A DNA stretch of 64,000 nt from Gautieria morchelliformis. Its lineage: Eukaryota > Basidiomycota > Agaricomycetes > Gomphales > Gomphaceae. Below the pieces are notes generated by a model. It did no database searches. It had not been told where the DNA came from and was given only the letters and a program-made list of their open reading frames with translations. A program made the position numbers and the translations under genes. Numbering within the stretch: the stretch's first letter is position 1; each line of letters begins with the position of its first letter. The stretch is from contig WHVA01000300.1 of assembly GCA_015179125.1 (NCBI GenBank), positions 1 through 64,000 of the forward strand. The letters run 5' to 3'. Shown here in pieces: positions 35,382 to 56,860 of this stretch.

Positions 35382-38178
35382 CTACTTTGGGCGTGTCCCG
35401 ATGGGAGCCGCGGTTTCTGCCCCTCGCGGGGGAAGCCTCCCTTGAGTTGGGAGGAGAGCGGGGTGTCCTCGCTTGTCAACGTTGGGACGGCCGGGCTCAG
35501 CGTCTCGTTTCCTATCGTCGGCCTCAGACTCGCCTCGCCCTCTATTCTGACCACGTCCACGCCTGGAGTAACCCCTGGTGCGGTACTGTGCGTCAAGACG
35601 CTCTTCTTTGATGAGCTTTCGTGCTTCTTCAATGGCGGATTTGTAAGATTCCCTTCCGCCCCGTTGCAGGTGGTCATAGAGACCTATCATGGCATATTTT
35701 TCCATGAACGAGTGGCTGCCATAACCTTGGCCACGGTGTGGCGGAGGGACGTAGTACGGCGCGTACTCGTGTGGCGTCCCGCGACGAGGTCCGCCGTGGG
35801 TGCTATAATGGTGGTCACCGGCAGCGGGTACGGGGTGATGCTGATTGGGAACATGAGTGGGGAGAGGGGCGCCATAATACCCCACAGGCATCGTCGTGTG
35901 TTGACTTTGCGTCGTGGGGTTTGTGGGGCCTGCTGTGACAGAGGGTGCTATACCTGAGAACTGCGACATTGAGTCCAGCCCGCCGAACGCCGCGGAAATC
36001 TCAGAGAGGCTATGGTCCGTCTCACGATAGTTCTTGTTGGCCTCGTGAAAACTCTGCCCTCCCAGCCAAGTGTCGTATCCCGCAGGTGCTGTGCCTGGGT
36101 CCGGTCCCCCTGCATACTTGTGTAGCGTTGACTTGTTGTGCCAATCCTGGAAGGTGGCTTGCATGTCGAGGGTATCAGGGTGCGAAGTCATGCAGGGAAG
36201 TGTTAGCGTAATTTGTAGCAGATGTGGCAGGGCGTATGAACAAGCAGTAGCCTTTATAGGCTTGGGGATCAAAACTTGTATCGTATGGGTGCTGATCGGA
36301 GTAGTTGGGCCCGGCTCAGGCCCCATATGCTCGGGGAGCTCCATCTCGATCTCCAGATTCCAGGGAATGCGACCAAGCACGTCAGGGAGGTTGTCTATGG
36401 AAGTGACATCCTGAGCCTCTAAGTAAGCGTCGAATTTTGATAGGTGGCGGACGGATGTGTATGGGAGCCAGGTTGTGTCATCGTTTTGCCATTGAACCTC
36501 GAACCATGAATCTCGTCCCTTGCCAGTGTGGCTGAGAAAAGAGCGTGGTTGCCACTCCGGCGCCGCTGCGCCCAGGGTCGCGACTTGACCAATTGAGTGT
36601 CCTGGGAATTTTCGGTCGTCGTTGGGCACATGTATGCGCAGAAGGTTGGCGTGGAATACGGGGTGTATGTCCCATGCGAGGAGTTCACTCGGGAGAGCCA
36701 GCTTATAGGAAGTCCGCAGGACAACCTCCTGTAATATCTTGTAGGGGCCCACAAACTTTGGAGCTAGCTTCCTGGCACGGCCTCTTGGCAATTTCAAGTT
36801 TTCTGTGGATAAGTACACCAGGTCGTCCACGCAGAATGGGGCTGGTTGACGACGTCGGTTGGCAGAGCAAGTTTGTTTCACTTGTTGTACGAGGATTGTG
36901 TCGTGTGCTGCTGTGAGGGCGTCCTTCATTCTCCTGGCAAATGCTTGTACTCCTGGTACGTAAGAGTCGTTGTGTGTCCAAATGAGTGGGTGTGGAACCA
37001 TTCCATAATTCAAGAAGAAAGGGGAGAATCCTGTCGTGTCAGAGCGTGCCATATTGAAGGCAAACTCGATGAACGGCAGTTTCTGAACCCAGTCCTTTTG
37101 ATCGGAAGAAACAGTGATTCATAGCATTTGTGTGATCGTGCGGTTAGCGTGTTCCGTCGCGCCATCGGTCTGTGGGTGGTAGGCGGTAGACATGCATAGT
37201 TCCGACCCGAGGAGCTTATGCAGGTGTTCCCAGAATGTCGCTGTGAATAGGGAGTCCCTGTCGCTGATGATACATTCGGGCATGCTGTGCAGCTTGTAGA
37301 CATTATCGAAGACCAGCTCAGTGATTTGTTTGGTGCCGAATGTTTGTTTTGAAGGAGCTAAATGTATCATAGAGGTTAAATGGTCTATGATTACACATAG
37401 CATGTCAAACTCGCCGTGTCTGTTTGAGGATGAGGGCAAGGGGCCAACGAAGTCAATCCCTATTTGCTGCTATCGTCAAGTTGGCACGGCTAGGGGCTTC
37501 AACTTGCCATACTTTGCATGGTTGATTGGTTTCGCCATGGCACAGATGTAGCAGCTGGAACAGAATGTCTTCACATCGTTGAACATTCCAGGCCACCAGA
37601 GATGTTCGCGTAAGTAATGAAATGTTTTTCTGCTGGCTTAAGGAGTGAGCATGCGAAATAAGGATCTCAGGAATGTTGCGATCCTTATGCCGACCTTCTG
37701 GGATGCCTAGTTTTGTACCCTCGGTCTCTCGTAGTATGATGAGTCTGTCCTGGAGCGTGAAGTTCTCGAAATCGTTAGGAGCAGTGATCATATTTCTGAA
37801 GAAACTGTCTTCGTAGTATAGTGATTTCAGTACTTCCGGGAAGCTTAGGGAGGGGTCAAGCATAGAGACTACATCGGAGAATGGTGGTGGGTTATATTCT
37901 ACGCACAAAGTATCTGGCGTCTGTTCTATGGGGTGGTCCACTACACGATGAGTGTCACGTGTTGGGGTGTCCATGGGGTCACCCGTGTTGTGTAAAGCCG
38001 CGGGTTTCACCTTTTGTGGACGAGCGCGAAGCGTAGACTCCAGCGATTTGTGATCCTTATCGTATGTCTGCTGTGGCTTTTCACTCTTTTTTATCAGTGG
38101 AGTTACTGCCATGCCGTCCTCATCTTTCCTTGCAGGCAGTTTTACCACGCGTCCACTCCTTGTCCTCATGGACTTAGT
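35382..38178 (-). pseudogene. G1 pol, 3' part: integrase and C-terminal extension
   Basis: From right to left: the RNase H-to-integrase connection (FRNMITAPNDFENF, 37.75 kb), H2C2 region near 37.6 kb, integrase core (STAYHPQTDGATEHANRTI, 37.17 kb), GPY/F module (KLAPKFVGPYKI, 36.74 kb; HPVFHANLLRIH), a chromodomain-like segment (WFEVQWQNDDTTWLPYTSVR, 36.45 kb) and a long Gly/Arg/Tyr-rich C-terminal extension to 35382 (RRGRGQNRGRG). Lesions: TGA at 37119-37121 and a frame change near 37.47 kb. Interrupted at 38178 by solo LTR A copy 2. The extension of about 250 residues past the chromo-like part is longer than usual. Confidence 0.87.
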
Positions 38179-39250: not shown

Positions 39251-40508
39251 TGTCAAGATTGGTTTTTAGGCATTAATATCATGTATTAGTGAACACAGTG
39301 AATGCCCAAATAACTTGTGCGAATAAGTATGCCGTTCGGCGAATAGATGAACCGATGAATGTTCACAAGGTAAGAGGGTTGCCCGAACGGGGCTCACCCT
39401 ATCTACAGTCGTAGCGAAATAGCCCGTGGCACTTGACGATGTAACATGCAAGGTCTCACCGAAGGGGTGTCTAAGTCTCGACAATCCCTTCGCCGGCAAA
39501 GGTGCTCCTTCGGAGCCCTTCACCAACAGCACAGAAAATGGTTCGAAGGCTAAGGTAACAAAGATGAAGTATGAGAACTCACCAGTGATGCCTAAGTCCT
39601 TTGCTAGTTGAAGATGGAAATCTCCAAGAGAAGGCTTAAGACGATGACCACAGCGAGGTCAAATTTGCACAAGATGAACGACGTATGATAATTGAACTGG
39701 GGAATATACATGCGAATGTAAACTACTTATATCGAATGCTTGTAAGGTATCAGCAAATAGGAAAGAGGCTGTCACGAGTCAGGGTTGGATAGGGGTGCGC
39801 AGTCATGATACAACATAGATGAAATAAACATACAATAGAATGAGAGAAGAGGGAGAACATGAAACGACGGAGGGTGAAGGTGGCGAAGACACCTGTGTAC
39901 GAAATCATGTCTTGGGGCCCGCATATACACTGCCCTGCATGGGTTCTTCATCTACTGGGTTGATCCCACACGACCCACGGGTAGGACGTCCCACGAACAC
40001 ACCCTGCTCATATGAACACCGAAAGGGGGTTGGATTGAGAAGCTGATGGAGTTACTGACGAGCCATTATACCGGATAGGGATGTCGATTGTGATTTGATG
40101 GTGTGCCTGCTGGCGAATGGTCGTTCGGAGAAATGCGAGGAAGGGTGAACAGAGGTGACATAGAGGAGGAGAGGTCAAGGTGGAGGGTGAAGCCAAGAGA
40201 ACTCTGGGGAGGAGTAGCGAAAGGGGAAATGGGGATAACAAGGTGCAGGAAATACACAGGTCATGACAATCCAATTACCAGAACACCATCGGAAGAGGGT
40301 CGCGCAGAGGAGGTGGTAGACCCAGCGATGACTGCCGAGTCAGTCCAAAGATGTCAATCGTGTGTTTGATGGCGTGGCTATGGTAATTGGCGGGAACAGC
40401 GAGAATTGGTTGCCGAACATGACAATGGCGATCGGAATGAACACGAAGGTGGAGTGAGAAAATAGGAAAACTGAGCATCTGAGTATGGGAAATAAATGTG
40501 TCATGACA
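39251..40508. mobile_element. solo LTR, family B copy 1 (1258 bp)
   Basis: Ends TGTCAAG and CATGACA, target duplication GGTAC (39246-39250 and 40509-40513). Very similar along its whole length to 41043-42312. No genes; short frames inside it are coincidental. Contains repeated GTTCGGCGAAT-like words. Confidence 0.92.
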
Positions 40509-41042
40509 GGTACGTCAGTCTCATCTATGTATTCAGATGAACTTCTGATTGTTCCATTAGGCTCTGCATTGTACATTCGTGATAATGCATCCATGACCAC
40601 ATTGGTCTCACCAGGGATATAGTGTATATCGAAGTCAAAGTCTCCTAGGATGTCGATCCAACGGTGTTGTCTGGAAGATAGGTTCTTCTGTGTGAGTATG
40701 TATTCCAGAGGTTTGTGATCTGTGAATATTCTGAATCTAATTCCCTGTAGTAGGTGACGGAATTGTTTTAGGGATTCTATTATTGCTAGAAGCTCATGGT
40801 TGTGGACAGGGTAATTTTGTTGTGCGGGATTAAATTTGGCTGACCAGAACGCGATTGTTGCTGCTGTTTGTTTATCCACGCCCTGCGTGAGTACGCCTGC
40901 TGCTCCTCCTAAAGATGTGTCACATATTAGGTTCACTGGTGGTGCGTCCATTGCGTAGTTGATGGCCGTTCTATGCGAGTCTCAGTGAGTCTGTACTATT
41001 TCCTTTACCGAATCGAAGGCTCGCTGCTCTGTAGGGCCCCAT
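40509..41042 (-). pseudogene. G1 pol: RNase H domain
   Basis: Minus-strand frame with LICDTSLGGAAGVLTQ, IAFWSAKFNPAQQNYPVHNHELLAII in two blocks, FRIFTDHKPLEYIL and SSRQHRWIDILGDFDFDIHY, the RNase H of a Ty3/gypsy pol. In-frame TGA at 40982-40984. The right edge joins the RT at 42313 after removal of solo LTR B copy 2. Confidence 0.9.
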
Positions 41043-42312
41043 TGTCAAGATTGGTTTTCAGGCATTAATATCGTGTATTAGTAAACACAGCGAATGCCCG
41101 AATAACTTGTGCGAATAAGTATGCTGTTCGGCAAATAGGTGAACCAATGAATGTTCACAAAGTAAGGGGGTTGCCTGAACAGGGCTCCCCCTATCTACAG
41201 TTGTAGCTAAATAGCCCGTGGCTCTTGACGATGTAACGTGCAAGGTCTCACGGAAGGGCTGTCTAAGTCTCGACAATCCCTTCGCTGGCAAAGGTGCTCC
41301 TTCGGAGCCCTTCGCCAACAGCACGGAAAATGGTTCGAAGGCTAAGGTAACAAAGATGAAGTATGAGAACTCACCAGTGATGCCTAAGTCCTCTGCTAGT
41401 TGAAGATGGAAATCTCCAAGAGAAGGCTTAAGATGATGACCACGGCGAGGTCAAAGCTGCACAAGATGAACGACGTATGATAATTGAACTGGGGAATATA
41501 CATGCGAATGTAAACTACTTATATTGAATGCTTGTAAGGTATCAGCGAATGGGAAAGAGGCCGTCACGAGTCAGGGTTGGATAGGGGTGCGCGGTCATGA
41601 TACAACATAGATGAAATAAACATACAATAGAATGAGAGAAGAGAGAGAACATGAAACGATGGAGAGTAAGGGTGGCGAAGGCACTTATGGACAAAGCCAT
41701 GTCTTGGGACCCACATACATGCCACCCTGCACGGACTCTTGGTCTACTGGGTTGATCCCGCATGACCTATGGAAGGGATGTCCTGCGAACACATTTTGAC
41801 CATATGAACGCCCAATGGGGTTGGATTAAGAAGACGATGGTTAATGATGAACCATCATGCCGGGTGAATGGTATTGATCATATTTGATGGTGTGCCTGCT
41901 GGCGAATGATGCGAGCAGCGAATGGCCGTTCGGCGAAATGCAAGGAAGGGCGAACAGAGGTGACATAGAGGAGGAGAGGTCGAGGTGGAGGGCGAAGCCA
42001 AGTGAACACTGAGGAGGAGTAGGGAAAGGGGAAATGGGGATACCAAGGTGCAGGAAATACACAGGTCATGACAATCCAATTATCAGAACACCATCGGAAG
42101 AGGGTCAGGCAGAGGAGGTGGTGGACCCAGTGATGACTGCCAAGTCAGTCCAAAGACGTCGATCGTGCGTTTGACGGCGTGGGGATGGTAATTGGCGCGA
42201 ACAGCGAGCATCGGTTGCCTAACATGACAATGGCGATCGGAATGAACACGGAAATGGGGTGAGAAATGGCAGGACAGAGCACCTGAGTATGAGGAATAAA
42301 CGCGTCATGACA
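41043..42312. mobile_element. solo LTR, family B copy 2 (1270 bp)
   Basis: Ends TGTCAAG and CATGACA, target duplication CCCAT (41038-41042 and 42313-42317). Independent of copy 1, because each copy has its own duplication. Confidence 0.92.
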
Positions 42313-44417
42313 CCCATCTCCATACTGCAGTTGATCCTGTCCGATTTGTTAGGACTCCCATAGGCTTCCTGATGTCCTTACAGTTTGGGGCTATGTAGCT
42401 GACCGTGCCTATGAATGAGGCAAGTGTGTCCCAGCCTGTTGGGGTTTTCCAGTTCGTTATTTGGTCCACTTTTTCCGGGTCCATAACAATTCCTTGTGCA
42501 TTGATAACATGGCCCAATATTTTCAATTCGTCTGCAAAGAACATGAGTTTGTCAGGTGTGGACAGGTACATCTTTTCTCGTCGTAGAATGTCGATAACAG
42601 TTTTGCAGTATTGTACATGTTCCTTGATTGAGTTCGAGTATATGACAATATCGTCTAGGTATATGTCCATAAATACTCCTATGTGTGGACCGAAGATATT
42701 GTTCATGACTGCTTGGTACGTTGCTGGGCCGTTACAGTCTCCTTGTTGCATTACTAAACTTTCCATTGTCCCATCAGGTGTATTGAACATTGTCCGACCT
42801 ACGTGTTCGTCTATGACACGTATTTGTTCATACGTGTCCCTTCCGTCAACCAGTGTTCTGAATGGGTGTCGTAGTACATTGGTGAGTTGGTGAGGATGGT
42901 TTCTATGTTGGGGAGAGGACTAGCCAGCTTACGCGTGTTCTTGTTTTGTTCGCGTTTGTCTAGCACGGTTCGGATGCGAGGCTCACCATTAGGGCCAGGC
43001 TTCTTCATTACGATTAACATGGGAACAGCATTACGTCCTGGTCGAAAATGCCATCTCCCTGTCTTTAGGTAACTATCCCGTTTTGTCCTCCAAAGGTGTT
43101 TCACGGCTTCAGGACAGCGTGAGGGCCACCAATTGTAAGTTTTTGATTCATCTATGATTGGTATTGTGTGATTTATTGCTCTAAGAGGCGGCAGGGGAGT
43201 CTCTTCCGCGGAGCGGCATATATCCATGGCGTATTCATGTAGTTGTTGGCGGATTTTTTGTAGTCCGTCCTCCACTATGTCCGCAGCCATTGAAGTTACC
43301 GTGGCCACGTCTGGGCCACCTATTTTCTGAGCCGTGTTTGAGACAATTGACACTTGTGAAGGGTTGAAGCCTAGCATTACCCTATGTTGGAATAGGAAAG
43401 GTGTGCCTAGTATCATACCATAGTTCTCCAGATTAATGACGTCAAAGCGCCGTCTTTCCAGTATGTCTTGATATGCAAATTCGACATTCGTTGAGCAGTT
43501 GATCATCGTGCGAGAACCTGTGGCTGCCAGCTGGTAAGGTAGAGGTTTTGCTAATTGTTCTATTGGGAGCTTTAACTGATCGACTGCCGTAGTGGAAATG
43601 AAATCTGCTAGGGATCCGGTATCAAGCAAGGCTCGTACATCCTTCCCGTTTATTTGTACCGTGATGACTATTGCCTTGGGTATTAGTCGCTTGAAATCCT
43701 TTGGTTTTCCGGCGTTACGCTCCATTTCCTGTGATCGTTGTGGCGCTTTTACTACCTTGCCTCGTGATTTGGCGGCAATGGTATTCGATGTTACTGGCCC
43801 GGTGGCAGCGACGTGGAATGTAATGTGTGGCGCACTATCTTCATCGTCTGACTCGTGTTCTATTGGGATGAGGCCAGGCATGTCCCCATATATGTCCTCT
43901 TCCTCAGGCGGCAAGATTTCCTGCAGTATGTTTTGTAGGCGCGTTTCCTCTTCATCTTTGCTGTCTTCTTCGTCTGATGAAAAGGTGTAATCGACGCTGC
44001 GGCTGGTAATGGAGTGGGCATCATCACGTTCTTGTGCCCGTCTATTGTTTGCTATTCGCTCCGTGTTCTGCGTAGCCAGTTGTTGTTTATTGAGGTGTCG
44101 CAGATTATCAGCTAAGTGTAGCCAGTCTTCGCCATCCCATCTTGAACCTAATTTTGTGAATGTACGCAGAGTTCTTCGGCTGTCTACCCACATATCGTCC
44201 GAGAATCACTCTATTGCGGGGGGGATCTCTCGAATTCTGCGGATATTTTCAAACTCTATCCAATCTATGCAGTTGAAGTCGTTGTCCAAGATCGTTGTTA
44301 CATCCAGTGAGTATTGCATATTGAATAACTGTTTTGGAACCCTTCAAGACTTTGGTGTTATTGCTAACACTTCAATCTATCAGAACGTGTCGTTTACAAG
44401 ACTCAAAGAATATTAAA
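42313..44417 (-). pseudogene. G1 protease and reverse transcriptase
   Basis: From right to left: an acidic linker, retropepsin-type protease (DVRALLDTGSLADFIS, 43.61 kb), RT fingers (YNWWPSRCPEAVKHLWRTKR, 43.1 kb; VLDKREQNKNT) and RT palm with QQGDCNGPATYQ and catalytic YLDD (42.66 kb), through GTVSYIAPNCKDI. Lesions: TGA at 44207-44209 and a frame change near 42.87 kb in the RT fingers, so no active polymerase can be made from this copy. Confidence 0.9.
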
Positions 44418-45789
44418 CAATGCTGCAGCACAACTCCGGAAATAATTTAATATTTGTACCTTGGTTGCAATCCGCGTAAAAACTAGTCCAAGTTAATACG
44501 GATGGAAGGCAATGCATTTCTTAGCAGCACTGAACAATAAACTAAAAGACTGTAGGTTCAAGGACACTATCGGGGTCCAAGTGTATTCCAAAATATAAAG
44601 GAATGTACTTAGCAGGCGAGTTTATAAATGGACTGCCCTGATAATCTACCAGCACACAGCAATAAAACGAGAGGCAAAGAATAGAATCTAAAGCGGCTTT
44701 TACAAGTAACAGGAATTGACTTGTGAAAGATATTAACCAGGAAAATCAACTGATCAACTCTCTTGGGTATTGGAGTGCGAATGGCAAGACTATCAATTGA
44801 CAGACTCACTCTGTAGAATTACACCCGGAGGATTAGTCTAGGTGGCTAAGCAGAAAAGTATCTACTTAACAAGGAATTAGACACTAAAGTAAGTGAATAA
44901 CCCTAGCTGGGATTAGCAGCTTAGTAAGATGCAAGTCACACGAGTCACATGTAGGATAGAAGCAGTAGATTGCTAGATTGGATGATTCTCCTGGGGGTCA
45001 GAATGGCCTCCTTTTATATTGTAAATTACACAGGATTATGTAAAATGGGGAGCTTCTATCTATTAGGCGAGTGATGTCATAAGTAAATATTTGTACAGCT
45101 AAAACACACCCTTGTAACTATAGTGGTGTGATTGTGCAAGGAAATTAAGAATAGCTAGCCAATCACCTTCCCTGATTCGCACTGCCCAGCATAGCCTTAC
45201 ACAGCCCAGCATAGCCTTACACAGCCCTGCATAGCCTTGCATAGCCCTGCACAGCCCTGCACAGCCCTATGACATCAAGGGTCCTATTTCAGGGGTTGCA
45301 GCACTGAGCTTGGAGGCTCATTGTCCAATAGGATTGATTGAATATACACCCTAGTTTTGGCCCTGCATATGATTGGGCAGTCTTGCACACAGCCTTACAC
45401 AGCCATGGTTGCTATGAAGCAGGTCATGTGTCTGCTGGGTTTGAACTATATTTAAGTGTACAGGTTTGTGTAAGCTGCACCGGATATTCCCAATCTCACT
45501 GGCTGAGATTGAAAGAGCCAAGGTGTCGGAGTTGTGGGTGTTTGAGGACGTGCGGCTCTGAATTAGCGCGTTCGAGGATCGCTCCTGTCGGAGTTCGAAT
45601 TTGAGCGCTGATGACAAAGTTATGGACTCTCATGGGTTCATAGCCTTTGTCAAACACAATAAGGCAGTTTTGAGCCAAGGAGGTCAGCACAATTGGCGAA
45701 AAAATGCAAGAAAATTCAAGGAATATTCTAAAAACAGTTCCCCATCAAAGCTGCATGTATTGGCTGATGTTAAGATGGGAAAAAGGTTT
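44418..45789. other. unassigned 1.4-kb block inside G1, probable solo LTR or degenerate insert
   Basis: G1 coding is lost between about 44.42 and 45.79 kb. TGCTGCA at 44418 and TGCAGCA ending near 45.30 kb would be matching LTR ends, but I find no target duplication for them. AT-rich, no coding signature. Confidence 0.4.
45184..45268. repeat. short tandem repeat (CAGC/CAGCCY-TAGCCTT units)
   Basis: About five imperfect copies of a 16-20 bp unit built from CCCAGCATAGCCTTACACAG and variants. Confidence 0.8.
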
Positions 45790-46677
45790 TTACAGACTTT
45801 TTAATGCTTTTTTCGAGATTTTTAAACTAGAAAGCTGGTTCCTACACAATAACCTATCATTTATTAATACGTCGTTTGCTGATATTGGGATTGTAGTGTA
45901 ACGACCGAGCTTGGTGCAGTTGGGGGGTAGTAAGCAGTGTCCCGTGCTTACCCCTTCTGATAGAGAGTGGCTGATGGCGTCCCAAAAGCTCTGTGGGAGG
46001 TTCATCGCATCTGGTGCGTCCCTTGGTTTTTCCTCTGGCATTAACATATTTAGCTCAAGCAATATATTTTCAGAGGCTAAGCGATCTAGGTCCTTGATGG
46101 AGCTTGTCAATTCTTACAGTCACAGCCTGTATGCCTGGCGGGCATTTTAGGTTGCTATCCGTGATTGTTGTGCATTTAGGGCAGTCCCTTGATAGGTGGC
46201 CCCCCTGGGAGCACAGGAAGCATAAACCCTTTGCTCGTAGGTCATCTTTCTGAGCATCGGTGAGTCTGTTTTTGCGTCTTGGTGAGCGTGATTGCTTCTT
46301 TGTGCGAGGATTAGTTCTGATATCATTTGTGGTTTTATCTCTAGGCTTAAAATCGTGGAAGTTGTGGCGTTTAGATGGAGAATTCCACATCCTGAGTGCG
46401 TTGGTTGGGGACGCCGGTCGTGGGTATGCGTCGCTATTCCTCGATGGTCGTCTAGGGTCCACTTTGGGAAGAGAAGCATTGCGTCTTTCTTCATATTGTC
46501 GTAAGTGTTCGGCCTGTTCGAAGCGCTCCGCTGTTTCTTCTAACGTTGTGAGATCTGTATATTCATCAGATAAGCCCGCTTTAGTCCATTCTAGATGAAT
46601 GTAGCTATTGGCGCCATTCCATAGCTGTTGGACAATGTGAAATTCCGTAATATCCGGTAGACACGTTGCCAGAGATC
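45790..46677 (-). pseudogene. G1 gag C-terminal part with CCHC knuckle
   Basis: Minus-strand frame from the G2 insertion point: SLATCLPDITEFHIVQQLW, ERFEQAEHLRQYEE, a basic stretch, then zinc knuckle CFLCSQGGHLSRDCP (46.2 kb). A second frame (46110-45790) continues toward the protease. The right edge at 46677 is the junction with the 5' LTR of G2. Its N-terminal half lies at 62.0-63.8 kb. Confidence 0.85.
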
Positions 46678-47072
46678 TGTCAGGGTTCACGCATTTCCTT
46701 CCACAAGTTTCTATTTCCTTCCATGAGTTTCCGTTACCTTCCGTCAGTTTCCATAACCTTCTGTCACATTCTGTCACATTCTGTCACCTTCCATCACATG
46801 TCACATTCCATCACCTTCCGTAACCTTCTACAAGTTTCCGTCTCCCCTATTATGTAAGCCTTGCCAGCGCTATAAGACTGTAGCCCGTGTGGTGGCGTTT
46901 CCTCAGCGTGATCTCTGAGGATACCCACTACACAGGCAAGTCCCCATGTATCTATCGTTGGTAGAGTTATAAACTGAGGATACCCACTACACAGTTGGTC
47001 ATTGTCCTAGTATCGGCTCTTATCTCCTTGAGTATCTTTGGTTGTGGCTTCGTCATTAGTGTTGCCCTCACA
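46678..47072 (+). repeat. G2 5' LTR (395 bp)
   Basis: Starts TGTCAGGG, ends CCCTCACA. Its first 150 bases are a pyrimidine-rich array of CTTCCGTCA/TTTCC words, followed by GCGCTATAAG (TATA-like) and a tandemly repeated GGATACCCACTACACAG. Confidence 0.93.
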
Positions 47073-53972: not shown

Positions 53973-54208
53973 TGTAAGGGCAACCCTGGCTGGTTGTGGA
54001 GATCACACTACCACACAACTGACAAGGGGAAATCCAAAGTATGTATAAATGAACAGAGTATACAAGGAAGGGGATTCTCACCTGACAAGGGGAAATCCAA
54101 AGAGAAAAGTCTAAGGACCCCCAATGTCAGCGAGCCCGTATTATACTACGCTGCACAGCCAGGGACAACATTTGGTACCCGCCATCAACCCTGCATCCCC
54201 CTGACCTC
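53973..54208 (-). repeat. G3 LTR, inverted copy, first half
   Basis: Reverse complement of the end of the LTR at 57240-57729, starting TGTAAGGG. Cut at 54208 by the hairpin-rich element; the rest lies at 56861-57096. Confidence 0.85.
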
Positions 54209-54400
54209 TGTAAAGAAGTGGATTCAGAGGGGGGGGGGTCCACAAGACCCCACTGTATAGTATTGCGTGGGAACCGCCGGCAGTTCCCCAGCTTAATCTT
54301 TACCTGTCACTGTCACTACGTAGCATCTGAATTACCACAAACTGGTTGAATTCAGCGTGCCCTTGTGATAAACAGGTATCAAGCCACTCTTGAACCTTCT
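54209..54400 (+). repeat. hairpin-rich element 5' LTR (right boundary approximate)
   Basis: Matches 56662-56855 through CTTGTGATA and then diverges. It contains the stem-loop GGGAACCGCCGGCAGTTCCC. Confidence 0.82.
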
Positions 54401-54949
54401 GCAGTCTTTTAAAAAAGACTGCAGTGCAGACGGTGGTTCGCCATTGAGAACGCTGTCGCCACGATGTTTTCATCGCGGGAATATTCCGAGTCCGAGTTGG
54501 ACTCGATGATGGAGAGGAGGAAGGGACAGCTCACTCGCTGGGTGAAGGTGTGCGAGATGACGCCCAGCGAGGCGTGGTTCTGGGCAGAGGCCAGCGAGGA
54601 GCGTTGGCAAAGCCTCTGCAGGGCCATGGACAAACGCGATGGCGTCCCTCTGGGACGCATCCACGCGCCACGGCACCTCCAGCACCCTCAGGCCTTCCAG
54701 CAGCCGGCCAGACAGGTCGGCCATGCTGTGCGTGATGCGCGACGTGACGTCGCACTCGTCGACGCCGCCTCCACCACCCACACCACGCATCCGCGCTCTA
54801 GGTTGCCCCAGGCGCACACGGACGATGGCACACGCTCCAAGGTGTGTGCATCCACCGTGGGGAACCCCCAGGAGCCCCCCAGAGCTGTGAAGGACCCGCG
54901 TAAGCCGCCTTCGCCGCGCAGTGTCATCCGCGGGCCCCAGGTGCCATAC

Positions 54950-55480
54950 CGGCTGCCCTGCTCGTTCCCAGCGAGTGGGAACGGTGGTGCATGCTCCAAG
55001 GAGCATGCATCCACCTCTGGGGGCCCTCCAGAGGCCCCCAGAACCGGCCAAACATCGCGAATGCCGCGCCCGGCGCCCGCGGCCATCCACCCTCGCCTGC
55101 GGCCCCAGGGGCCACCATGCTCGCTCACAGCGAGCGGGAACGGTGGTGCACGCTCCTTAGAGCATGCACCCACCTCTGGGGCCCTCCAGAGGCCCCCAGA
55201 GTCGGCCGGACGCCGCGCAGCGTCATCCGCGGTCGCACGCGGCCCCAGGCGCCGTCCCGGCCGCCCTGCTCGCTACCAGCGAGTGGGAACGGTGGTGTAT
55301 GCTCTGTAGAGCGTGCATCCACCTCTGGGGACCCTCCAGAGGTCCCCAGAGCCGCCCAGATGTCGCGCACGCCGCGCAACGACATCCGCGCGCCCCGGCT
55401 GCCCCGCTCGTTCCCAGCGAGCGGGAACGGTGCTGCACGTCCCAAAGGACGTGCACCCACCGCTGGGAGCCCTCGAGGGG
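54950..55480. repeat. tandem repeats of 138-159 bp made of palindromes
   Basis: Four units, with GCGAG(T/C)GGGAACG at 54971, 55130, 55279 and 55417. Each contains three stem-loops: CGTTCCCAGCGAGTGGGAACG, GCATGCTCCAAGGAGCATGC and the TCTGGGGGCC/GGCCCCCAGA pair. Sequence between the stems is less conserved than the stems. Confidence 0.85.
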
Positions 55481-55855
55481 CCCCCAGAGGCCGCCGGGCG
55501 CCGCGAAAGCCACGCCCGCAGGGCCGCCCCCGTCAGCGGCGGGTGCCACGCGGCGCACCGGGTCCCCAGCAGACACCCAGGCTGCTGGGGCTCCCTGCCG
55601 CATGCCAGGGCCGGCCCACCGCCGCGTCCGCGTTCGCGTGCGGGCCCAGAGGCGGTCCCAGCCGCCAGACTCTCTCCTGTCAAGGAGGGAGGGTGCGGCA
55701 CGCCCCAAGGGGTGTGCATCCGCACCTGGGGACCCACCAAAGGTCCCCAGAAGCTCCCGGTTGTGGCATATGTCGCAACCGCCGCATTGCCGGCCCCCTG
55801 CGGAGCCACCGCCATTAGTGTGTGACAGTCTGCAGCTAACGAATGCAGTCACAAT

Positions 55856-56155
55856 GTGGAAGACCTGTGCCGAAAGGAACGGGACAAGCAGCGAATGCCG
55901 CCGCCAGCCGTCCTGGTCGAACAGGACGTAAGGTTCGGGAACGGACCTCAAGAGCAACCGGCTGCCCCCACGGACAGCTGCAAGATGATCCAACAGATCG
56001 TCAGAAAGTGTGCCTCTGCCTGCATCACATGCCTGGCACAAATGCACATCCGTTGTGTCCAGGTCCATGGACACAATGCCCAGCGGCTGTATGCAGCCGC
56101 TGGCCTGTTAATGAAGTGGTCAAGTATTGACCGCTTCGGTAATTTCATTGCGTAG
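55856..56155 (+). other. small open frame (99 codons) in the hairpin-rich element
   Basis: ATG-initiated frame with MEDLCRKERDKQRM and IVRKCASACITCLAQMHIRC. It has no resemblance I know. It is the only frame in the element not made mostly of GC-rich repeat units, so it might be translated, but it may equally be chance. Confidence 0.3.
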
Positions 56156-56660
56156 GGCTCCTCCGAGTCCTACGGGTGACATCATGTCACAAAGCAGTCA
56201 ATTATTGACCGCTTGGTTATTCCTTGCATAGGGCCCTGCCAGGTCCTATGGCTGCATAACTGCTATCCTTCGCAGTTAGGCACCAATGATGCCTAGATCA
56301 TTGGCTGTTCAGTTCCCCACAGACATCACCTGTCTGTGGGTTTGAGAGCATTCAAGTTGTTCTCAACCATGGGTTTCGGTTCAGAGGGGGAAGAACCATG
56401 CCCCCAAACCAACCAACCACCCACTACAACTGGGGAGTGCCGGTGAAGCCGGCACAACCACTGGTGTTCAGAATGATGAACACCAGAACAGATGTATTGG
56501 CACTATGCCAACACATCTGCCATGATGCCATGTCATGGCATCAGATCTGCGGTTATTCTGAGGTACATCAGAATGACCTGGTCCACACACCCATCCCTTT
56601 CTCAAGGTCAAAGGGGCGCTTCTTTTGGCTCACCCGGTGGGTTCCTTCTAGAAGGGGAGG
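56115..56660. repeat. chain of at least 15 consecutive short hairpins
   Basis: Successive inverted repeats with almost no unpaired sequence between them. Examples: GTGACATCATGTCAC (56176), CCAATGAT..ATCATTGG (56283-56304), CCCACAGAC..GTCTGTGGG (56316-56340), GTGCCGG..CCGGCAC (56437-56455), CTGGTGTTCA..TGAACACCAG (56461-56486), a nested CAGATGT/TTGGCA stem (56489-56519), TGATGCCATGTCATGGCATC (56523) and ATTCTGA..TCAGAAT (56555-56574). Stems are 7-10 bp, many perfect, others with G-T pairs. Confidence 0.9.
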
Positions 56661-56661
56661 G

Positions 56662-56855
56662 TGTAAAGAAGTGGATTCAGAGGGGGGGGGGTCCACAAGA
56701 CCCCACTGTATAGTATTGCGTGGGAACCGCCGGCGGTTCCCCAGCTTGATCGCATCTTACTCTTACCTGTCACTACGTAGCATTCAGAATACCACTCATT
56801 GGTCAAGTTCTGCAGTGCCCTTGTGATACAAGGTCCTAAGATCGACATCTTTACA
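56662..56855 (+). repeat. hairpin-rich element 3' LTR (194 bp)
   Basis: Starts TGTAAAGA, ends TCTTTACA, preceded by a polypurine tract and followed by target duplication ACCTC. Confidence 0.9.
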
Positions 56856-56860
56856 ACCTC

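Follow-up and report, generated by a model that had tools for sequence, protein, structure and literature searches.

A gene-free LTR element that probably takes its 3' end from the strong-stop cDNA of a Ty3/gypsy helper

The window, the whole stretch of 64,000 nucleotides from Gautieria morchelliformis that was analysed, carries at positions 54209-56855 an element with LTR-like ends and a body rich in short hairpins. This locus raises the question of how an element with no recognisable gene of its own is copied, and of what its folded body represents. The initial annotation described it as a non-autonomous LTR element with every mark of LTR retrotransposition. The outline of this description was right: the polypurine tract (PPT), the TGTAAAGA/TCTTTACA ends and the ACCTC target duplication are all present. 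However, the unusual structure of the ends was overlooked. The 5' repeat is no full LTR, and it matches the 3' repeat well over the first ~86 bp only.

The absence of gag and pol was borne out as well. Neither was recognisable among the listed frames of the element, and a Pfam scan of the frame 54464-55309 returned zero matches. Codon differences over 54464-54736, counted against 22 other copies, gave 102 synonymous and 199 nonsynonymous changes in frame 0, and 77/200 and 113/198 (synonymous/nonsynonymous) in the other two frames; no clear selection is seen. Stops over the same stretch number 3 in frame 0 versus 66 and 44 in the other frames.

Two types of copies and the structure of their ends

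Dozens of copies, as a lower bound, were found in the one genome searched (122 Mb, 1113 contigs), and 40 loci were fetched for comparison. Two kinds were present among them, the A-type and the B-type. The B-type copies (10 analysed) have LTRs that are nearly equal and ~195 bp long, duplications of 5 bp as judged by eye, and a PBS-like stretch past the LTR, where a primer binding site (PBS) is expected. The terminal repeats of the 18 A-type copies with both ends, the window copy included, are unequal; the target duplication is an exact 5 bp in 12/18 and has one mismatch in 6/18. The 3' end of the A-type is shared with a further family, H, which is called the helper here. The parts of the window copy are as follows.

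54204-54208 (no strand): left target-site duplication ACCTC, by direct reading of the sequence
54209-56855 (+): A-type element, starting with TGTAAAGA at 54209 and ending with TCTTTACA at 56855
54209-54289 (+): 5' U3 with TATAG, which co-varies with the 3' U3 of its own copy
54290-54398 (+): 5' R-U5 remnant (the "a" tail), without an LTR terminus
54290 (+): predicted RNA start; AGCTT, 34 nt past TATAG in 15/17 copies
54399-54424 (+): 11-bp perfect hairpin, at the position of the LTR end and putative PBS of the helper and the B-type
54640-55815 (+): GC-rich, hairpin-dense body with diverged internal repeats; no coding frame supported (test over 54464-54736)
55824-56004 (+): segment 84% identical to the helper region immediately before gag, by sequence comparison
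56050-56600 (+): short hairpins in a chain, most of them with Watson-Crick pairs only; compensatory changes are seen among the copies
56650-56661 (+): polypurine tract AGAAGGGGAGGG; the helper counterpart is GAGGGGGAGGG
56662-56748 (+): 3' U3 of the element's own type, last bases AGCTTG, by copy alignment
56749-56855 (+): helper-derived R-U5, 107/107 identical to helper LTRs
56856-56860 (no strand): right target-site duplication ACCTC, by direct reading of the sequence

The helper and the B-type have a CTTTTTGAA/G-like stretch past the LTR, which is named a putative PBS by its position. The A-type 5' repeat has neither the TCTTTACA terminus nor a stretch resembling this putative PBS. An alignment of the A-type 5' end with a B-type LTR and with helper LTRs, both older and current ones and taken together with the stretch downstream of them, shows that the A-type terminus is altered. 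The hairpin that replaces the PBS position is perfect over 11 bp in the window and imperfect in some copies, for example L014 and L017. It should be mentioned that the putative PBS of the helper, CCTTTTTGAACTATCC (L059, L060 and L063), does not start with TGG and has no obvious match to a tRNA 3' end (by eye).

The two repeats of each A-type copy were compared in two parts; these pairwise end tests exclude one-ended loci and loci that were fragmentary or hard to assign. Over positions 1-19 and 31-86 of the repeats, the G run being left out, the difference is 2.7% within a copy versus 4.7% between copies (18 copies), and the likeness within copies over positions 1-86 was reached in 0/20,000 permutations (p=5e-5). 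Over positions 87-160, the mean difference is 27.9% both within and between copies (p=0.47), with an own-copy range of 23-33% in 18/18 A-type copies. In this second part, the difference among 5' repeats is 4.7%, and among 3' repeats it is 9.5%. The own LTRs of the B-type (10 copies) differ by 2.3% and 1.8% over the same two parts. The U3 part thus co-varies within a copy and positions 87-160 do not, which means that every cycle makes a new duplicate of the first part but not of the second.

These ends set the A-type apart from both of the usual classes. As in a complete LTR retrotransposon, a PPT, TG..CA ends and a short target duplication are present, but LTRs of the kind that are identical at insertion were seen in 0/18 A-type copies, and a hairpin stands where the PBS should follow the 5' LTR. 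As in TRIM and LARD elements, gag and pol are absent and a partner with shared cis-signals exists, namely H, but the two equal terminal repeats and the own PBS of those elements are lacking. LTR identity at insertion is the rule by which elements are found and dated; the A-type breaks this rule, and could be missed or misdated.

Long inserts in L017, L021 and L025 were considered as autonomous versions of the element. This was ruled out, since their sites differ, 4-6-bp overlaps are present and the inserts are, by eye, nested gypsy or copia elements. These lie at ~770-7230 in L017, ~490-7430 in L021 and ~3260-7880 in L025 (oriented-locus coordinates), and the matched element overlaps by 4-6 bp at each insertion point. 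In L041 (301-904), an A-type 5' half is followed by an inverted piece of the 3' LTR, which perhaps arose by aberrant self-integration.

The 3' tail, the helper family and the junction

The last 107 bp of the window copy (56749-56855) match perfectly at 37 or more other places in the genome, and these 100% matches start at the junction or one base ahead of it. All nine tails fetched from them (9/9) sit behind the unrelated U3 of H; four precede the putative helper PBS and so belong to 5' LTRs, and five follow the PPT and belong to 3' LTRs. Other A-type copies carry other helper tails. The different tail of L021 is 100% identical at 31 or more further places, and an additional one, on C502, has an A-type U3. 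The tail of L011 occurs at 12 or more places at 99%, and 7/7 of those fetched carry the H U3; that of L012 occurs at one or more places at 99%, and the one fetched also carries the H U3.

The A-type tails, among which L027 (3' end only) was included, were compared with 39 helper tails; two of the latter, L065 and L082, are truncated or rearranged LTRs without most of the helper U3. Gapless matches with 0-4 mismatches in ~107 positions were obtained for 15/19. The tail of L027 has 1 mismatch and a gap to its nearest helper, that of L023 has 7 mismatches and a gap, and that of L026 has 8 mismatches and 3 gaps. The tail of L024, an old copy, is far from all 39 (20 mismatches and 7 gaps). Older helpers outside the sample are assumed to explain the poor matches of L023, L024 and L026. 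Of the 18 A-type copies, 17 match a helper, and in all 17 it is the 3' end that does so. Copy age, taken as the U3 mismatch, correlates with the distance to the nearest helper tail (rho 0.54, p=0.02, 18 copies), as is expected if the tail is the helper tail at the time of insertion. Each copy's tail would then record the helper variant used, and a genome could reveal which helpers and parasites were paired over time.

In a copy of H on C298, zf-CCHC, RVT_1, RT_RNaseH and SH3_Tf2-1 were found above the Pfam cut-offs, and Ty3_capsid, Retrotrans_gag and rve below them; its frames stand apart from one another or are interrupted. Judged from these matches, H is a Ty3/gypsy family with gag, RT, RNase H and integrase domains. 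A long extra frame lies between integrase and the 3' LTR (L073:1894-2880, + strand; L049:952-2112, minus strand), and a search with it gave nothing above the Pfam cut-off. The named protein closest to the helper gag comes from Gautieria morchelliformis (71%).

The element and H share the PPT, the LTR termini, the promoter core, the 3' R-U5 and a 181-bp segment. This segment, 55824-56004, is the only homology to H outside the LTRs in the helper pieces fetched (84% identity), and the B-type copy included in the comparison has a counterpart too (86%). The segment might serve as a packaging signal. The initial annotation had proposed mobilisation by another element as one possibility; this gains support, because a partner has been found in H, by which the element would be moved.

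The helper tail starts 35 nt past TATAG in 35/39 helper LTRs (two have no TATAG, and two have other spacings). This start and the AGCTT of the A-type are likely, from their sequence context, to be transcription start sites. Wherever an A-type copy could be matched to a helper, its 3' LTR changes from the A-type U3 to helper sequence at this point. The U3 before the switch ends in AGCTT or a one-base variant of it, plus one base. This extra base (56748 in the window) is G in 16/19, A in 2 and C in 1; as a speculation, the extra G may be cap-templated. A switch at the likely start site of the helper matches the product of strong-stop cDNA that ends at the helper cap. At the other end of the element, inspection by eye shows that 5-10 helper-R bases separate U3 from the "a" tail in L019 and L022; these chimeric 5' ends are interpreted as marks left by a second-strand transfer that set out from the 3' U3.

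Proposed replication cycle and its alternatives

Probably, the A-type is a non-autonomous satellite of the Ty3/gypsy type that takes helper strong-stop cDNA in trans in every cycle, a reading that rests on comparison of sequences. With the primer site missing, the element would be unable to prime its own reverse transcription. Its RNA would start at 54290, end in the 3' LTR and be packaged together with the RNA of H. Minus-strand strong-stop cDNA would be synthesised on the helper RNA, from the helper PBS to the helper cap site. The sequence footprint suggests that this cDNA is then transferred in trans to R at the 3' end of the A-type RNA, and that it is extended across the A-type U3, the body and the 5' remnant. 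The plus strand would begin at the PPT, and its U3 would be joined to the minus-strand end at R, so that the 5' U3 is rebuilt. Such rebuilding is seen as the co-variation of U3, and the two 5' junction chimeras fit it; these two chimeric ends also suggest that the second-strand transfer takes place without a PBS. The integrated copy would have the form U3-a ... U3-b, in which "a" is inherited and "b" is the R-U5 of the current helper. The latter would also provide the end that is recognised by integrase. Consistent with an "a" tail of this kind, it was found at 36 or more strong loci, no two in one element; the matches listed reach down to weak ones, and few should be missing.

A helper tail might instead have been acquired on one or a few occasions and passed on from then, with minus strands primed near the element's own 3' end and only U3 duplicated. 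This would likewise yield U3-a ... U3-b. The inheritance of tails was examined with 18 A-type tails, L024 being omitted. Twenty-two tail alleles occur in A-type copies yet in 0/39 helpers; 21 of them are in a single copy and one is in two. The sole shared allele, a C-to-T change in base 5 of the tail, is found in L013 and L026, whose tail types are different. Minority variants are shared more often in the 5' tail (10/35, p=0.037 versus the 1/22 of the private tail alleles) and in the body (48/174, p=0.018), and the differences are not significant for the 5' U3 (5/19, p=0.08) and the 3' U3 (2/15, p=0.55); this comparison is not like for like, because helper-absent alleles only are set against any minority variant. 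Several H tail variants recur on different A-type copies, at 98-100% identity. On the other side, tail distance correlates with body distance among the A-type copies (rho 0.54), and the tail and the body are therefore not independent. Such a correlation is expected if helper types change over time, and it also fits some inheritance. The comparison of alleles argues modestly that tails are not passed down within the A-type lineage, and capture followed by inheritance seems improbable.

An ordinary LARD or TRIM element, in which the LTRs were identical at insertion and then diverged, with genomic helper LTRs acting as donors in gene conversion of the 3' LTR, would account for the PPT, the TG..CA ends and the 5-bp duplications, and the B-type relatives are of that kind. 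However, the first 86 bp are near-identical within each copy while the next part is 23-33% different in 18/18. Moreover, the 5' tails are alike (4.7%), and the helper-like end is always the 3' one (17 matched of 18). Gene conversion should scatter the junctions and affect the 5' LTRs too, but the observed switch point is constant. This explanation is very improbable. It is scarcely credible that the element is a DNA transposon, bounded by 8-bp terminal inverted repeats and containing subterminal direct repeats, which an integrase-like transposase would move as one piece: the TGTAAAGA/TCTTTACA ends do form 8-bp inverted repeats, with 5-bp duplications and non-identical terminal repeats, but U3 is duplicated anew within each copy, where cut-and-paste would pass on the ends without re-duplication, the PPT is retained, and the 3' end is the LTR end of a Ty3/gypsy family.

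The use of helper cDNA in trans would also distinguish the A-type from known pairs. In the sections of PMC11302176 that deal with autonomous and non-autonomous partners (Cereba and Quinta), an identical PBS and identical LTR termini serve as pairing criteria. Like LARD and TRIM elements and the Cereba/Quinta pair described there, the A-type lacks pol and would depend for its movement on a helper that shares its LTR termini. Unlike the pair in that account, the A-type shows no recognisable PBS, its two terminal repeats are unequal in every copy examined, and only at the 3' end is R-U5 shared with the helper. In retroviruses, according to the relevant passages of PMC5651808, strong-stop DNA can pass from one packaged RNA to another; the second transfer is generally intramolecular, and has been argued to be intermolecular at times too. 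The intermolecular first transfer described in those passages is an option between related genomes, whereas that of the A-type is apparently obligatory and fixed in its anatomy, and the U3 regions of helper and satellite are largely unrelated. The A-type would offer a natural and testable example in which the first strand transfer has to be intermolecular. No precedent for an LTR element dependent on helper strong-stop DNA was found in the titles and abstract openings of the open-access literature searched.

A wider picture is put forward tentatively. The A-type elements might be regarded as "strong-stop parasites" with a way of life distinct from that of other LTR elements, in which reverse transcription is never begun by the element itself, the primer site has turned into a hairpin and a usable end is rebuilt from helper cDNA in every cycle, within a family whose RNA is hairpin-ordered as a whole, perhaps through snap-back copying by its reverse transcriptase.

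Hairpins in the element and in its helper

Hairpins were counted strictly, as perfect stems of at least 7 bp with loops of 3-20, and compared with dinucleotide shuffles. In 56115-56660, 8 perfect hairpins were found versus 0.6±0.7 (maximum 3) in 100 shuffles, and in 54640-55815, 12 were found versus 2.4±1.5 (maximum 8; 100 shuffles). Two flanking stretches gave 3 versus 2.8±1.7 and 5 versus 2.2±1.3 (40 shuffles each). The chain of hairpins that had been described, and the stems in the GC-rich part, are thus far denser than in the shuffled controls. As for the proposed figure of at least 15 stems in 56115-56660, the chain is dense but the strict count is 8, to which imperfect stems and longer loops would add.

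Fold energies gave the same picture. In 200-base windows, z reaches -8.6 within the element, and the flanks (+ strand) lie between -1.2 and +1.4. In the 12 windows of 54209-56608, the fold of the + strand is stronger in 9, weaker in 2 and equal in 1.

The stems are also preserved in other copies. In 34 copies (640 bp before the 3' LTR), variants present in at least three copies occur at 0.116 per paired site versus 0.220 per unpaired site, and singletons are nearly even (0.257 versus 0.275). That shared variants avoid paired sites and singletons do not suggests selection on the stems. Double compensatory changes were found at 15 pairs versus 8.7±2.1 in shuffles (3/500 reach 15), and in 27 cells versus 12.5±2.9 (0/500 reach 27), counts which are inflated by kinship among the copies; slid controls gave 2-8 pairs and 2-14 cells. 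Neither a stem density equalled by shuffled sequence nor a faster erosion of stems than of loops, either of which would have spoken against the hairpins, was observed. In the helper coding region (9-10 copies), compensatory changes did not exceed those of shuffles, and paired sites are not clearly poorer in shared variants (per site, gag, 0.130 paired versus 0.164 unpaired; pol, 0.125 versus 0.122).

The body is not alone in its folding. The mean z is -4.8 for the A-type and -4.7 for the B-type, and the helper gave -3.2 and -4.0 for gag-pol and -3.4 for the leader. Seven other retrotransposon regions, including 35382-37052 (assigned to copia or gypsy by visual inspection of their frames), gave -0.94 to +0.45, and two host genes and a mixed stretch of the window gave -0.27 to +0.07. 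Perfect stems of at least 8 bp, counted without shuffles, number 5.5-7.6 per kb in the A-type (three copies) and 6.8-9.7 in the B-type (two), and, likewise without shuffles, 2.5-3.6 in the helper and 0.27-0.63 in three control elements. Hairpin density seems to be a trait of the whole helper/satellite family. A packaging or Dicer device confined to the gene-free element, as the initial annotation had considered, is weakened by this, as the gag-pol of H is structured as well. A role for Dicer seems unlikely from general knowledge, because most stems are only ~7-14 bp.

The hairpins might have been produced by snap-back (quasi-palindrome) copying by the reverse transcriptase of the family and not by selection on RNA. 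The stems are nearly free of mismatches and poor in G-U pairs, which make up 5.0% of stem pairs (16/319) on the + strand versus 9.8% in shuffles, and 9.5% on the - strand versus 13.6%. No excess of G-U (G-T) over A-C, which would be a sign of selection at the RNA level, was seen in the small counts at hand, and the trait is present in sequences copied by this reverse transcriptase and absent from the other elements tested. However, shared variants shun paired sites and singletons do not, and z is stronger on the + strand in both the A-type and the B-type. Snap-back copying as their origin is rather unlikely. Tentatively, the hairpin body is most likely a selected folding of the RNA (or cDNA) that might aid packaging or copying.

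Retrozymes are non-autonomous LTR elements with structured bodies and a hammerhead ribozyme in the LTR. The A-type is likewise non-autonomous with a structured body, but no ribozyme family was matched, and the reading as a retrozyme was ruled out on this ground: an Rfam search of the window element, with E up to 5, gave no ribozyme family and no hammerhead. Its four matches at that threshold, three snoRNA families and Ocean-VII, are all under the gathering scores. RNA viruses have ordered RNA structure on the scale of the genome, with fold energies far under those of shuffled controls in coding and non-coding parts. Here, such order is found in a Ty3/gypsy family and its satellites, and the stems are short and almost purely Watson-Crick. 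No LTR retrotransposon with an ordered RNA structure was reported in the titles and abstract openings of the open-access literature searched. A structured Ty3/gypsy family beside unordered families in the same nucleus lets the purpose of the structure be asked.

In the window, the region 40340-46777, which is not hairpin-dense (mean z -0.31), surrounds a gypsy element at 42305-44193 (minus strand) whose RT motif, QGDCN, is similar to the GDCN of the helper (by eye).
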